In this document: piece after piece, positions 23,849 through 55,088 of the stretch
Layout: each line of letters begins with the position of its first letter
Numbering within the stretch: position 1 is the first letter of the stretch
Source of the DNA: Achromobacter xylosoxidans
Lineage (GTDB): Bacteria; Pseudomonadota; Gammaproteobacteria; Burkholderiales; Burkholderiaceae_B
DNA length: 64,000 nucleotides
Direction: 5' to 3'
Assembly: GCF_014490035.1 (NCBI RefSeq)
Contig: NZ_CP061008.1
Coordinates: 930,001 to 994,000, forward strand
The notes under the pieces: generated by a model
Database searches by the model: none
What the model was told of the DNA's origin: nothing
What the model saw: only the letters and a program-made list of their open reading frames with translations
Made by a program: the position numbers and the translations under genes

Positions 23849-23905
23849 GGCCGCCGCAGGCATTCCCTGGCTGCGGCTTTCGTTGTATGCTTGCGCCGCT
23901 GTCAC

Positions 23906-24149
23906 GCATGTTGCGGGAGAGAGCGGCCTGTACGTCCGGCCGCCGCCGAAGGCGCAATTCGCCCGGAATCGCTCAGGTAACCCATACCGCCCATGCTTGC
24001 CCTGTCCCGGTTTTTTTACCGCGCGGACGCGGCAAAACAGTACTCTGGAGAGACCTGGCGCCGCCCCTGAACTAGGGACATAGCGAGCAGCCCAGGCGCC
24101 GAAGGTGCAAACCCGCCATGCGGGGCAACTCTCAGGCAAAAGGACAGAG
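23906..24149 (+). promoter_or_regulatory. Tandem glycine riboswitch upstream of gcvT
   Basis: Two glycine aptamers in series. Aptamer 1 (23906-23996) has closing arms GCATG/CATGC, then GGAGAG, GCCGAAGGCGCAA and GCTCAGG. Aptamer 2 (24043-24149) has closing arms CTCTG/CAGAG, GGAGAG, GCCGAAGGTGCAA and ACTCTCAGGCAAAAGGACAG. These are the conserved blocks of the gcvT RNA family. The glycine cleavage genes follow at 24244. In this family glycine usually turns expression on. The 46-base linker between aptamers is long and includes a T7 run. No clear terminator follows aptamer 2, so control of translation initiation is possible. Confidence 0.95.
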
Positions 24150-24243
24150 GGGCGGAAGATTCAGCCGTTGTACAAGTGCACCCCGCTTGGCACCACTGGC
24201 ATTCCGTAACCCTGGCAACACTGCCGCCCCGGAGTTTCCGCGC

Positions 24244-50109: not shown

Positions 50110-50787
50110 ATGTCCACCGCTCTGTCCCGCCCCAGCCCCGTTTCCTTCCTGCGCCGCATCAGCCCCGTGGATGCGCTGCTGGCCGAGGCCGACCGCGCGT
50201 TGCGGGTGCTGTCCGGCAGCGCCACTGCCGGCCGCCCGTATCCGGCCACTGCCGACGAGGCGCCGCAAGCCCTGTCGGCCCAGGAAAAGCGCCACGCGGC
50301 CGGCCTGATGCGGGTGAATCATGTGGGCGAGGTCTGCGCCCAGGCGCTGTACCGGGGCCAGGCTTCGGTATGCCGAGAGCCCGCGCCCCGAGCCCTGCTG
50401 CTGAACGCGGCCTCCGAGGAAGTGGACCACCTGGCCTGGTGCAATCAGCGGCTGACGGAACTGGGCAGCCGCCCCAGCCTGCTGAATCCGGTCTGGTACG
50501 CGGGTTCGTTTGCGCTTGGCGTGCTGGCCAGCTACGCCGGCGTGCCGCGCAACCTGGGTTTCATGGCGGAAACCGAAAAGCAGGTCGAAGCGCATCTGGA
50601 AGAACATCTGCGCACCTTGCCGGTGCAGGACGAGCGCTCGCGCCAGATCGTGCACAAGATGAAAGAGGACGAGGCGCAGCATCGCGCCAGCGCGGAAGCG
50701 GCGGGCGGTGTTCCTTTGCCGGCGCCGGTAAAGGCCGCGATGCGGGCCATGTCGAAGGTCATGACGACCACCGCTTACTGGGTCTGA
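50110..50787 (+). CDS. coq7: Ubiquinone biosynthesis hydroxylase Coq7 (demethoxyubiquinol hydroxylase)
   Basis: A 225-residue membrane-associated di-iron monooxygenase that carries out the last ring hydroxylation in ubiquinone synthesis. Iron ligands are probably Glu74 ([11 protein letters not shown]), Glu104 and His107 (SEEVDHLAW), Glu160 and the Glu188/His191 pair (EDEAQHR). Many betaproteobacteria use this Coq7 form instead of UbiF. GAGGAG lies nine bases before the chosen ATG; an upstream in-frame start lacks this signal. Confidence 0.95.
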
Positions 50788-51041
50788 TACGCCTGAAACG
50801 TGAAATGTTGCAATGCGCAAAAATAGCTGCAAGTTGGTGCCGGGCGCACCATCTCGGTGCAAAATCCAGAGCGGGATAACCCGATAGAGGCTAGGGTAAG
50901 CCCCGGGCGGGTTTACCCATTTGGCAAAAACCCTGTTTTTGGAATAGCCATTGATTGGCGCGGGTTTCCAGAGGGGAGTCCAGGACTTTGCGGCAAATTT
51001 GCAACGCGAAAAATCTCTTGCGCGACAGGCTAAAAAAATTC
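50788..51041. other. Structured non-coding segment after coq7
   Basis: No coding frame is supported. Two neat hairpins stand next to each other: GGGTAAGCCC with GGGTTTACCC (50894-50918, one wobble pair) and CAAAAAC with GTTTTTG (50925-50941). Neither is followed by a T-run in the direction of coq7, though either could end or stabilise its message. Base composition becomes AT-rich towards the promoter that follows. Confidence 0.5.
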
Positions 51042-51070
51042 TTGCATCGCACAAAAAACCTCGGTACTAT
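51042..51070 (+). promoter_or_regulatory. Candidate sigma-70 promoter of the small RNA
   Basis: TTGCAT (51042-51047) and TACTAT (51065-51070) are separated by exactly 17 bases, in an AT-rich stretch unlike the surroundings. Transcription would start near 51077, about 145 bases before an intrinsic terminator. Confidence 0.5.
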
Positions 51071-51076
51071 TCATAC

Positions 51077-51223
51077 ATCGGATGTTGAAACGCAGTCGGC
51101 GCGGTGCAAAACCCCGAAAGCGTAGTGAGCGGAAGGCCAGCTCCCAACATGCCACGGTTGTCTCCTCCACCCTCCTCCTTTGGTGGATTTAGCCCGAGAT
51201 CTCACGATCTCGGGCTTTTTTTT
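51077..51223 (+). ncRNA. Candidate small RNA with two C-rich anti-Shine-Dalgarno-like segments
   Basis: The transcript would be about 147 bases, bounded by a 17-base-spaced promoter and a perfect terminator, with no open frame having a ribosome site. ATGTTG (51082-51087) can pair with CAACAT (51145-51150), enclosing the first half. A second hairpin pairs TCCACC (51166-51171) with GGTGGA (51182-51187). CTCCTCC occurs at 51162-51168 and CCTCCTCC at 51171-51178, the latter mostly in the hairpin loop. Such loops can bind ribosome sites of target messages, as in C-rich-loop sRNAs of other proteobacteria. Alternatively it is an attenuated leader of the glycan locus that begins 343 bases downstream. 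I do not recognise a known RNA family. Confidence 0.5.
51191..51223 (+). terminator. Intrinsic terminator of the candidate small RNA
   Basis: Perfect 11-base-pair stem (51191-51201 with 51206-51216), TCAC loop and eight T. The T-run is only on the plus strand. Confidence 0.92.
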
Positions 51224-51566: not shown

Positions 51567-52673
51567 GTGACCTGGCTGTACATTTGCGTGGTCGCATTCA
51601 TGGTGGGGGGACTCATCGTGGCGTCGGAGCGCTGGCATGGCGCCTTCACCGGCGACAGCGACCTCAACAAGCCCCAAGCCAACCATTCCCGCGCCACGCC
51701 TCGCGTCGGCGGGCTGGCCGTGCTCGCGGGTACGCTGGCGGGCCTGCTGGTCCTCGGACCCAGCAACATGACGCTGACCTGGCTTTGGCCCGCGCTGTTC
51801 GTTGCGGCGCTGCCCGTGTTCGTGGCAGGCCTGCTCGAAGACATCACCAAGGACATCGGCGCCAGCAAGCGCCTGCTGGCTGCCTTCCTGTCGGCCGCGA
51901 TCGCCTGGTGGCTGCTGGGCGGCGTCAGCCGCGTGGGGATGGCGCCGGTGGATTACGTGCTGTCCTTCTGGCCGGTGTCGCTGCTGTTCACCATGTTCGC
52001 GGTGGGCGGCTGTACGCACGCGCTGAATATCGTTGACGGCATGAACGGCCTGGCCGGCATGGTGGCCACGCTGATGGCCGTCTCGATCAGCCTGGTGGCG
52101 CTGCAAGTGGGCGACGTGCCGATTTTCCTGGTGGCGGCGGCGCTGGCCTCGGCCACGCTGGGCTTCCTGGTCTGGAACTTCCCGTTCGGGCGCGTGTTCC
52201 TGGGCGATGGCGGCGCGTACTTCCTGGGCTTCATGCTGGCCGAGCTGGCCGTGCTGCTGGTGGTGCGCAATCCTTCGGTGTCGCCGTTCTACGCGCTGGC
52301 CGTATTGTTCTATCCCGTCTTCGAAACCGGTTTTTCGATCTGGCGCCGGCGCTTCAAGCGCGGCGTGCCCGTGGACCAGCCGGATGCGCTGCACTTGCAC
52401 CAACTGGTGTTCCGCCGTCTGGTGCGGGTCACGTTCAGCCGTGGCCGGCGGCATGCGGTGCCCGCGCTGTGCAATGCGCTGGCCTCGCCTTACATGTGGG
52501 TGCTGGCCCTGATCGGCCTGGTGCCCGCGACCATCTGGTGGGACAACGCCTGGGCGCTTTGCGCCAGCCTGGTGGTGTTCGCCGCCGTCTATATCTGGCT
52601 GTATTCGCGGCTCGTGTCCTGGCGCCGGCCAGGCTGGCTGCTGCTGCCATCCGTTTTGCGGACTTCCGATTAG
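51567..52673 (+). CDS. WecA-like polyprenyl-phosphate sugar-1-phosphate transferase
   Basis: A 368-residue integral membrane protein with about ten membrane segments, of the WecA/MraY superfamily. It joins a HexNAc-1-phosphate (often GlcNAc or a modified form) to undecaprenyl phosphate and so starts glycan assembly. Acidic and substrate motifs visible are LEDITKD near residue 91, NIVDGMNG (154-161), FLGDGG near 211 and the basic HLHQLVFRRLVR loop. The start is a GTG six bases after AGAGGT. It is the first gene of the rightward glycan locus. Confidence 0.9.
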   Translation: MTWLYICVVAFMVGGLIVASERWHGAFTGDSDLNKPQANHSRATPRVGGLAVLAGTLAGLLVLGPSNMTLTWLWPALFVAALPVFVAGLLEDITKDIGASKRLLAAFLSAAIAWWLLGGVSRVGMAPVDYVLSFWPVSLLFTMFAVGGCTHALNIVDGMNGLAGMVATLMAVSISLVALQVGDVPIFLVAAALASATLGFLVWNFPFGRVFLGDGGAYFLGFMLAELAVLLVVRNPSVSPFYALAVLFYPVFETGFSIWRRRFKRGVPVDQPDALHLHQLVFRRLVRVTFSRGRRHAVPALCNALASPYMWVLALIGLVPATIWWDNAWALCASLVVFAAVYIWLYSRLVSWRRPGWLLLPSVLRTSD

Positions 52674-52682
52674 TTTTGGGCG

Positions 52683-52703
52683 CCCCGGCGGCTGCCGCCG
52701 GGG
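52683..52703 (+). terminator. GC-rich hairpin between the first and second glycan genes
   Basis: Nine-base-pair stem CCCCGGCGG/CCGCCGGGG with a three-base loop, followed after a few bases by a T-rich stretch that itself contains GGTAAT/ATTACC arms (52708-52728). It may partly terminate or attenuate transcription into tviB. Confidence 0.35.
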
Positions 52704-52775
52704 GCTCGGTAATCTTTTCTTAATTACCCGACCATATTTGAAATGCCGTAATCGTTCTACGGTGAAGGGAGAGTT

Positions 52776-54053
52776 ATGTTGCGAATTCAGGATGTGAAAC
52801 TCGCTGTTGTCGGCCTGGGCTATGTCGGCCTGCCCCTGGCGGTGGAGTTCGGCAAGAAGCGTTCGGTCATCGGGTTCGATATCAATACGCGTCGCATCGA
52901 CGCGCTCAAGGCGGGCCACGACCATACGCTGGAAGTCAGCGATGAAGAGCTGAAGGAAGCAACCCAGCTGAGCTACACGGCGGACCGCGCCGTGCTGGGC
53001 CAGGCCAACGTGTTCATCGTGACCGTGCCGACCCCCATCGACGAATACAAGCAGCCGGACCTGACTCCGCTGGTCAAGGCCAGCGAGACCATCGGCGCCG
53101 TGCTCAAGCGCGGCGACATCGTCATCTACGAATCCACCGTTTATCCTGGCGCCACGGAAGAAGACTGCGTGCCGGTGCTGGAGCGCGTGTCGGGCCTGAA
53201 GTTCAACGTGGACTTCTACGCCGGCTACAGCCCCGAGCGTATCAATCCGGGCGACAAGGACCACCGCGTCAGCACCATCAAGAAGGTCACCTCCGGCTCG
53301 ACGCCCGAAGTGGCCGAGCTGGTCGACCAGCTGTACAAGCAGATCATCACCGCCGGCACGCACAAGGCGTCCAGCATCCGCGTGGCCGAGGCTGCCAAGG
53401 TCATCGAGAACACGCAGCGTGACGTGAACATCGCGCTGATCAACGAGCTGGCCCTGATCTTCAACAAGATGGGCATCGACACCGAAGCCGTGTTGCAGGC
53501 GGCCGGCACCAAATGGAACTTCCTGCCGTTCCGTCCGGGCCTGGTCGGCGGCCACTGCATCGGCGTGGATCCGTACTACCTGACCCACAAGGCGCAATCC
53601 ATTGGCTACCACCCCGAGATCATCCTGGCGGGCCGCCGCCTGAACGACTCGATGGGCAGCTACGTGGTGTCGCAACTGGTCAAGGCCATGACCACGCGCC
53701 GCATCCACGTGCAGGGCGCCCGTGTGCTGGTGATGGGCCTGGCCTTCAAGGAAAACTGCCCCGACCTGCGCAACACGCGCATCGTGGACATCGTCAAGGA
53801 ACTGGGCGACTACAACGTCGACGTCGACGTGTACGACCCGTGGGTCGATCCCGAAGAAGCCATGCACGAATACGGCCTGACCCCGGTGGCCAAGCCCGAG
53901 GAAGGCCAGTACGACGCCGTGATCCTGGGCGTGGCGCACAATCAGTTCAAGGCGATGGGCGCGGAAGGCATCCGCAAGCTCGGCAAGGCGCAGCACATCC
54001 TGTATGACCTGAAGTACGTGCTTTCGCCTTCCGAATCCGATCTGCGCCTGTAA
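52776..54053 (+). CDS. tviB: UDP-N-acetylglucosamine 6-dehydrogenase, TviB type
   Basis: A 425-residue UDP-glucose/GDP-mannose dehydrogenase superfamily enzyme, closest in motif pattern to TviB/WbpO (Vi antigen and Pseudomonas O-antigen). The NAD motif is [15 protein letters not shown] at the start; catalytic Cys261 is in [14 protein letters not shown]; the C-terminal UDP-binding part has [15 protein letters not shown]. It oxidises UDP-GlcNAc or UDP-GalNAc to the uronate in two NAD steps. It lies nine bases before the epimerase gene, and GGGAGAG precedes the ATG. Confidence 0.92.
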
Positions 54054-54062
54054 GGACTGCCC

Positions 54063-55088
54063 ATGACCACACGCTTTGAGACCATCAAGAAGGAACTGTC
54101 GGCCGCGCCGCGCAAATGGCTGGTGACCGGCTGCGCCGGTTTCATCGGGTCGAACCTGCTGGAGACCCTGCTGAAGCTGGGCCAGACCGTGACCGGCCTG
54201 GACAACTTCGCCACCGGCCATCAGCACAACCTGGACGAGGTGCGCGACTCGGTCACGCCCGAGCAGTGGGCGCGCTTTACCTTCATCGAAGGCGACATCC
54301 GTGACCTGGAAGCCTGCCGCCGCGCGGCGCAGGGCGTCGATTTCGTGCTGCACCAGGCCGCGCTGGGTTCGGTGCCGCGCTCTTTGAAGGATCCGATCAC
54401 CACCAATGAGGTGAACATCGGCGGTTTCCTGAACATGCTGGTGGCAGCGCGCGATGCCGAAGTCAAATCCTTCGTCTACGCGGCCTCCAGCTCGACCTAT
54501 GGCGACCACCCGGCCTTGCCCAAGGTCGAGGAGCACATCGGCAATCCCCTGTCGCCTTATGCGGTCACCAAGTACGTCAATGAACTCTACGCGGACGTCT
54601 TCGCGCGCTCCTACGGCTTCGAGTCAGTCGGCCTGCGCTACTTCAACGTGTTCGGCAAGCGGCAGGATCCCAACGGCGCCTATGCGGCCGTGATCCCCAA
54701 GTGGACGGCCGCGATGATCCAGGGCGAGGACGTCACCATCAACGGCGACGGCGAGACCAGCCGGGACTTCTGCTTCGTGGACAACGCGGTGCAGGCCAAC
54801 ATTCTCGCGGCCATGGCGGCGCCTGAAGGCCGCAACCAGGTCTACAACGTGGCCGTCAGCGGCCGCAGCACTCTGAATGAGCTGTTTGGTTTCCTGGCTC
54901 ACGCCCTGGGCAACCAGGGCGTGGTCTATGGCAAGAAGCCGGTCTACGCCGATTTCCGCGCGGGCGATGTGCGCCACTCGCAGGCGGACGTCAGCAAGGC
55001 GGGCCGGTTGCTGGGCTACGAGCCGACGCACACCGTGCTGCAAGGCCTGGAAGTGGCCATGCCCTGGTACACGCAATTCCTGCGTTGA
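54063..55088 (+). CDS. tviC: UDP-HexNAc(A) C4-epimerase, TviC/WbpP type
   Basis: A 341-residue extended short-chain dehydrogenase/epimerase. The NAD motif TGCAGFIG is at 22-29, with Tyr166 and Lys170 ([11 protein letters not shown]) as the catalytic pair and the preceding AASSSTYGD serine. The N-terminal extension before the Rossmann motif is typical of TviC and WbpP, which prefer N-acetylated sugars. With the TviB-type enzyme it should give UDP-GalNAcA from UDP-GlcNAc. The order of the two steps cannot be read from sequence. Confidence 0.92.

Follow-up and report, generated by a model that had tools for sequence, protein, structure and literature searches.

The small RNA (sRNA) gene downstream of coq7 in Achromobacter xylosoxidans is almost certainly the orthologue of S17/CT_433 of Bordetella pertussis, a member of Rfam family RF02278, and its promoter bears over the -35 hexamer a sequence that resembles the binding sites of PhaR. 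Taken as a whole, sequence comparison makes it probable that this S17 orthologue is transcribed from a promoter that PhaR represses and PHB granules release. The site over the -35 had been missed by the original prediction, which was made from the letters of the window (the whole 64-kb stretch of DNA that was analysed), and a PhaR-like site on a promoter of the S17 family seems to be new.

Identity and distribution of the sRNA

The unit had been put forward as a candidate undescribed sRNA, for which an Rfam search was proposed. That search returns the Betaproteobacteria toxic sRNA (RF02278) over the full model (positions 1-64 of 64; E 6.9e-12), so that the RNA is already catalogued and cannot be called undescribed; it is also known as S17/CT_433, and homologues have been published in Burkholderia (PMC5688073, PMC4603805) and Herbaspirillum (PMC7011215). 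The features of the unit and its neighbours are as follows.

50110-50787, + strand: coq7, the conserved upstream neighbour (NCBIfam NF033656 equivalog, 320.3 bits against a cut-off of 180)
51042-51047, + strand: -35 hexamer TTGCAT, the same hexamer as in the S17 promoter (P_S17)
51065-51070, + strand: -10 hexamer TACTAT after a 17-bp spacer, hexamer and spacing as in P_S17
51077-51223, + strand: long transcript of S17L type, ~147 nt, its start set to match the RACE-mapped start of S17
51080-51153, + strand: 5′ domain closed by a predicted long-range stem, 51080-51087 with 51145-51150 and 51152-51153
51158-51223, + strand: putative processed short form of S17S type, ~66 nt, aligned with the published 67-nt S17S
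51159-51223, + strand: RF02278 match, 69.2 bits against a gathering score of 50
51159-51168, + strand: Site 1, single-stranded UGUCUCCUCC, a predicted anti-RBS segment, invariant in 50 sequences that were chosen by an 11-base word inside the Site 1 region
51162-51168 and 51171-51178, + strand: CTCCTCC and CCTCCTCC
51166-51187, + strand: predicted hairpin, stem 51166-51171/51182-51187, C-rich loop 51172-51181 (Site 2)
51191-51223, + strand: intrinsic terminator, 11-bp stem 51191-51216 and T run to 51223
51567-55088, + strand: polysaccharide genes downstream of the sRNA

S17 of B. pertussis sits between a glycosyltransferase gene and coq7, is transcribed from a TTGCAT-17-TACTAT promoter with a RACE-mapped start at an A 7 bp past the -10, and occurs as a 190-nt long form and a 67-nt short form cut by RNase E; it is Hfq-dependent, carries anti-RBS sites and has been demonstrated by Northern blot, 5′-RACE and compensatory mutations, and an orthologue in A. 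xylosoxidans A8 is listed for it (PMC11722255). CT_433 is the same RNA, for which RIL-seq gave 36 Hfq-mediated partners with a Shine-Dalgarno-like target motif and whose good conservation outside the closest species is confined to the 3′ region (PMC12235514). The name "toxic sRNA" comes from growth inhibition on over-expression in Escherichia coli; S17S in E. coli BL21 left exponential growth unaffected and had a modest effect at entry into stationary phase (PMC11722255).

The orthology rests on the RF02278 match, on the place beside coq7 (which also adjoins S17 in B. pertussis; PMC11722255), on hexamers and spacer equal to those of P_S17, and on the alignment of the window sRNA with locus L049, which reproduces S17 in full (190 nt measured from the same analogous start, 67 nt, 9 T, a 32-codon ORF). 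Both RNAs thus share locus, promoter, two forms, Sites 1 and 2 and terminator, and the S17S segment with both sites lies within 33 consecutive invariant columns of alignment A1 (L049 among its rows), whose rows were chosen via an 11-base word inside those very columns. In contrast, the window long form is 147 rather than 190 nt, its 5′ domain being ~43 nt shorter, and the 32-residue ORF of S17 is absent. The ncS03, ncS05, ncS27 and ncS62 RNAs of Burkholderia cenocepacia (PMC5688073, PMC4603805) likewise have two hairpins, C-rich anti-RBS segments and a terminator, but there several copies exist, three of four very short, whereas the A. xylosoxidans genome has one copy of RF02278, which carries a 5′ domain not covered by the Rfam model. 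Four further families gave weak covariance-model matches on the same stretch and were rejected, all below their gathering scores: NmsR/RcoF of Neisseria (RF02877, 35.6 bits against 52), anti-hemB (RF02837, 30.3 against 49.5), SorX (RF02784, 21.6 against 46.6) and SorY (RF02651, 26.6 against 111).

RF02278 is found above its cut-off in all 43 genomes of the genus, the own genome counted, with a second, sub-threshold match in one of them, and RF02278 is present in 186 of 200 family genomes (the own genome and 10 other genus members counted). At order level 99 of 150 genomes have a match, 59 of the 150 over the cut-off. Among the best 80 Coq7 loci listed, all of the 22 closest (L060-L081) and seven of the remaining 58 have the exact core word in the vicinity of coq7, and the nearest Coq7 with a named source belongs to Achromobacter sp. 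RTa (93% identity); in seven distant loci the homologue is 0.6-1.4 kb from coq7.

As for the genes downstream, the WecA/MraY-like transferase scores below the family cut-offs, the TviB-type dehydrogenase above its own (699.9 bits against 592), and the epimerase is closest to TviC at 485.7 bits, below the cut-off of 760. Action of the sRNA on these glycan genes, which had been suggested, finds no specific support here, the published targets lying mostly elsewhere; duplex energies between the sRNA and the pha genes and neighbours are uninformative, since they ignore accessibility, and no target is claimed from them. Elsewhere in the window, two RF00504 aptamers on the forward strand (23904-23999, 48.7 bits; 24035-24157, 56.5 bits) are an ordinary tandem glycine riboswitch.

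Transcript, fold and C-rich sites

The architecture read from the single sequence holds: the TTGCAT/TACTAT promoter with 17-base spacing, the ~147-base unit, the terminator, the adjacent CTCCTCC and CCTCCTCC segments and, in the predicted fold, the hairpin with a C-rich loop. A consensus promoter scan reported nothing at the sRNA promoter, which therefore rests on orthology, and terminator-like matches number one against a shuffle mean of 1.4, so that the single-sequence evidence is modest. The comparative evidence for the unit is strong, comprising the RF02278 match, its spread in relatives and covariation.

The 147-nt RNA folds at -55.8 kcal/mol (z -3.27), with one of 200 shuffles as low, and in the predicted fold ATGTTG (51082-51087) pairs with CAACAT (51145-51150), the long-range stem of the original prediction, which had also proposed a covariance analysis. 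For this, alignment A1 comprised 50 of 63 distinct sequences chosen by a GGATG motif and the 11-base core word, a selection that favours the 5′ strand of the long-range stem and the core and leaves the 3′ strand of the stem free. Across these 50 sequences 98% of the cells of the long-range stem are paired and three of its eight pairs show double-sided changes, the seventh pair occurring as U-A (26), C-G (19), U-G (3), A-U (1) and G-U (1); the terminator has such changes in six of 11 pairs, and the six stem pairs of the middle hairpin are all invariant, so that this hairpin yields no covariation information. All pairs together give nine of 25 double-sided, a value reached by none of 500 shuffles. 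Such shuffles leave relatedness in, whereas a control in which the partner columns are slid removes it, and in that control the pairing is lost. Covariation beyond both controls argues that the 5′ domain, although outside the Rfam model and variable in sequence, is conserved as a fold.

RNase E processing has been shown for S17 and, by analogy, very likely yields the ~66-nt form here. Blocking of ribosome sites by the C-rich segments, as originally predicted, has been demonstrated for the B. pertussis orthologue (PMC11722255, PMC12235514), where S17 represses BP2158 directly and requires Site 1 to do so (PMC11722255); by the same analogy the window sRNA can be expected with high confidence to act against ribosome-binding sites.

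A PhaR-like site over the -35

The PhbF/PhaR motif TG[N]TGC[N]3GCAA has been footprinted at phbF, and PhbF represses phaP1 and phbF (PMC3206438); PhaR moves from the phaP promoter to PHB granules (PMC3079617). The triplets TGC-N3-GCA of this motif are present in the sRNA promoter at 51043-51051, and in relatives a TTGC-N3-GCA block extends over the -35 and the spacer, beyond the hexamers. Against the consensus the window site (TCT-TGC-ATC-GCAC) has two mismatches, both outside the triplets, and the phasin site of the same genome (TGT-TGC-GTC-GCAC) has one. As in the published regulon (PMC3206438), the triplets lie over a promoter; the members named there are genes of PHB metabolism with no sRNA among them, whereas the site in the window belongs to an sRNA promoter.

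Sites were scored with a matrix made from 46 of 55 phasin sites from genera other than the own. Nine sites (L188, L192, L193, L198, L200, L201) were dropped by eye as out of place, the own-genus loci L141, L207 and L212 and loci L202, L206 and L214 were excluded, and a threshold of 15 bits was set by hand. Three sites stand out in the window.

51037-51058, + strand: main PhaR-type site over the -35, core TGC-ATC-GCA at 51043-51051 (24.1 bits, the best in 64 kb)
50803-50824, + strand: second PhaR-like site, just past the coq7 stop (19.9 bits, the second-best distinct site in 64 kb)
50993-51014, - strand: weak third PhaR-like site (13.1 bits)

These top three distinct sites on both strands of the 64 kb share the gap between coq7 and the sRNA, and the best site elsewhere reaches 9.8 bits; 20 surrogate 64-kb sequences peak at 8.3-16.4 bits, with one at 22.6. 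The second site precedes the main one by ~235 bp and recurs in all 30 genus loci scanned, with scores of 14.7-28.1 bits and a spacing of 232-235 bp; it possibly reflects looping or a second promoter. The third reaches at least 12 bits only in the own locus (L001) and L018 among the 30.

All 30 phasin promoters examined (the 30 best loci, located from the phasin domain match) have at least one matrix match of at least 15 bits, and 27 of them have two sites, 54-67 bp and mostly 56 bp apart; 24 of the 30 gave training sites, and the six that gave none fit equally well. Among sRNA promoters, 98 of 103 scored loci have at least 15 bits (103 of 106 loci, without L029, L230 and L233, some species occurring twice), the best site lying off the -35 in a few, for example L217, L184 and L234. 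In a control restricted to loci with the exact core word and to the forward strand, that score is attained by 76 of 79 related sRNA promoters versus 12 of 1580 surrogates and 5 of 643 other 300-bp pieces. A second site of at least 8 bits accompanies the first in 34 loci, and in 18 of these 34 it is 53-57 bp away, as in phasin promoters. Of 40 further sRNA stretches, with cores placed by fuzzy match, 16 reach at least 15 bits (many are paralogues and ~9 were already in the order-level comparison below); PhaR control would hence not be universal and would concern only part of the wider family.

In the own genome, where matrix scores come from pattern matches only, the phasin promoter (31.4 bits) and then the sRNA promoter (24.1 bits) are the strongest of the pattern matches scored. 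The pattern TTGCNNNGCANAA shows no enrichment there, with 29 matches versus 30 in the backwards control; TTGCNNNGCANNAAAA with at most one mismatch occurs 102 times versus 50 for the control, and 30 of the 102 were scored. No site is present in the own phaR-phaC region, where the best score is 3.1 bits (L175). Two other places in this genome were seen to hold PhaR-like sites: position 1501 of L242 (G000:C1 near 5779213; 16.5 bits), where a gene that looks like a pyruvate kinase begins next to a divergently oriented one that looks like a glycerate kinase, and position 1543 of L170 (G000:C1 near 120045; 17.4 bits), between presumed ABC-transporter ATPase-like and phosphodiesterase-like genes. 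In some other genomes (G285, G237; L267-L282) RF02278 has 8-9 matches and only some of the copies carry a PhaR-like site, in some ~20 bp before the core, which suggests that the copies may have divided roles.

Co-occurrence of the site with PhaR

The A. xylosoxidans genome encodes PhaR (PF07879, 107.9 bits; TIGR01848, 160.4 bits against a cut-off of 109.45) together with PhaC, PhaB and a phasin, and PhaR is present in 181 of the 200 family genomes. Thirteen of the 14 family genomes without the sRNA are also without PhaR; eight of the 14 come from a single reduced genus, and the relatedness of the genomes means that they do not count as independent cases. In six family genomes the sRNA is retained although no PhaR was detected, and three of these have lost the site, including both that are 100% complete (G097, 9 contigs; G145, 1 contig); the third, G156, is a draft of 200 contigs, 91% complete. 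The three that keep the site, G225, G226 and G219, are drafts of 210-310 contigs, 86-97% complete. In three of the genera concerned (g22, g23, g4) the site is found in 13 of 14 PhaR-bearing genomes. The promoters of G145 and G156 retain TTGC and not GCA.

At order level, where site calls were fixed before the PhaR search, 25 of 28 loci were compared, 23 of them outside the own family and two within it. Fourteen have both site and PhaR, seven have neither, one (L151) has the site without PhaR and three (L142, L149, L167) have PhaR without an exact site (Fisher p=0.0017, which is optimistic because of relatedness among genomes). L148, L154 and L159, placed after this comparison, all have both. 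Site and PhaR thus go together order-wide.

A separate block, TATTAGA-N2-4-TNCTNA[TC], was observed 44-59 bp before the core in L151, L160, L162, L165, L166, L168 and L169, that is in six of eight PhaR-less order-level loci and one with PhaR (L169), with a shorter variant in L161 and L163; it is perhaps the site of another regulator in place of PhaR.

Alternative explanations

The site was identified by similarity, and a different regulator that also controls the phasin genes could in principle bind TGC-N3-GCA. This reading would accommodate L151 and the three draft genomes that keep the site without a detected PhaR, but the triplets are those of the footprinted PhbF site (PMC3206438), the site is associated with the presence of PhaR, and it is gone from both 100%-complete genomes that have the sRNA and no PhaR, so we regard another regulator as improbable, though it is the most serious of the competing views. 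Many relatives have the site at a constant position over the -35, so one could also see in the block no more than an atypical -35 followed by a conserved spacer, with no dedicated repressor. Such a constraint would hardly explain why a matrix trained on phasin promoters picks the sRNA promoter, why second sites are conserved ~235 bp away in the genus and 53-57 bp away in 18 loci, why L150 and L159 have the site ~20 bp before the core, or why G145 and G156 keep TTGC but not GCA; we consider it very unlikely. Repression by PhaR remains the reading that we prefer for the site.

The nature of the RNA itself admits two other views. Lying between coq7 and a WecA-like gene, the unit might be a cis-acting element, or a terminator, that serves coq7 or the glycan genes. 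Yet it has a promoter and a terminator of its own, S17 is transcribed independently and acts on targets in trans (PMC11722255, PMC12235514), and in the seven distant loci the homologue is well separated from coq7; the chance of this reading is very small. That the long form is a dual-function RNA, also encoding a small protein of 36 codons in the window and 32 in B. pertussis, is scarcely more credible. The original prediction had seen no supported open frame, to which a caveat applies: a 36-codon frame does exist, opening at ATG 51082 and running through the C-rich region, though it is not conserved in frame; the authors of the S17 study likewise note a 32-residue ORF (PMC11722255). In 63 distinct sequences, however, the ATG-to-core distance modulo 3 is spread 25/20/18 and only 18 of the 63 read through in the frame of the window, and by this frame drift a peptide-coding long form was rejected. 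Moreover, the two ORFs use different start codons, the ATG of the published one being absent in the window, and changes in codon 2 follow the pairing of the long-range stem. An S17-type, trans-acting sRNA is thus the reading retained.

Proposed control and role

Several published observations bear on a link between PHB and this sRNA. The authors of the S17 study postulate an unnamed repressor of P_S17 (PMC11722255), whereas the known input to S17/CT_433 in B. pertussis is the Bvg state (PMC11722255, PMC12235514), which counts against PhaR control. A PhaR-like site is present in L049 (24.0 bits) as in the window, and it is not named for S17 in the accessible parts of those papers. Three Burkholderia homologues share an upstream motif (Fig. 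S3 of the Burkholderia paper), which may be the PhaR-like site. In Sinorhizobium meliloti the PhaR homologue AniA negatively controls the Hfq-dependent sRNA MmgR, whose promoter control involves a dyad motif between -35 and -10 (PMC8401924); MmgR is thereby a precedent for a PhaR-type repressor over an sRNA, but it belongs to the alpha-proteobacterial alpha-r8 family and is described as lowering phasins and PHB (PMC8401924). In the PhaR/PHB and sRNA literature covered, for the most part openly accessible papers, we found no published statement of PhaR control of the S17/RF02278 family, including the accessible text of PMC4603805, PMC9049629, PMC11332829, PMC8401924 and PMC12235514.

We infer from its site that the sRNA promoter belongs to the PhaR regulon, and binding and repression by PhaR at this promoter are, on these comparisons, probable. 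While no granules are present, PhaR bound over the -35 would silence the sRNA in the way it silences the phasin gene; storage of carbon as PHB would then draw PhaR onto the granules and relieve both promoters at once. Transcription would run from ~51077 to 51223, RNase E would trim the RNA to the 66-nt two-hairpin form and remove the closed 5′ domain, and the two C-rich single-stranded stretches, with Hfq, would pair with the ribosome sites of many mRNAs and block their translation. The sRNA would then lower translation of transporters and catabolic enzymes, as the repressive arm of a small PhaR regulon. Given that in this genome the phasin and sRNA promoters have the two strongest PhaR-like sites examined, granules would switch on a brake on uptake and catabolism.

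Published targets and conditions of the family fit such a brake: S17 targets include transporters and paa genes (PMC11722255), and ncS27-type RNAs are higher in glucose medium, biofilm and starvation, ncS27 and its kin being tied to amino-acid and carbohydrate transport and catabolism (PMC10987360 and Burkholderia work). The CT_433 partners in B. pertussis, which include virulence genes and ArcA (PMC12235514), speak against a purely metabolic role, and we hold the chances of the carbon-storage brake as the role of the sRNA to be about even. With fair confidence, and slightly less than for the A. xylosoxidans promoter itself, we would extend PhaR control to PHB-storing beta-proteobacteria at large, in which PhaR would directly govern an anti-ribosome-site sRNA, be the repressor of P_S17 and offer a parallel to alpha-proteobacterial MmgR.

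If PhaR control is true, the carbon-storage state would become a single testable input for an sRNA family that is widespread and has been described under three headings: toxic sRNA, double-hairpin RNA and virulence-mode RNA. The higher levels of these RNAs in glucose medium, biofilm and starvation would thereby be explained, and the missing repressor of S17 would have a name. The beta-proteobacterial PhaR regulon, which is of interest for bioplastics, would in turn gain a post-transcriptional arm, like that of MmgR in Sinorhizobium.
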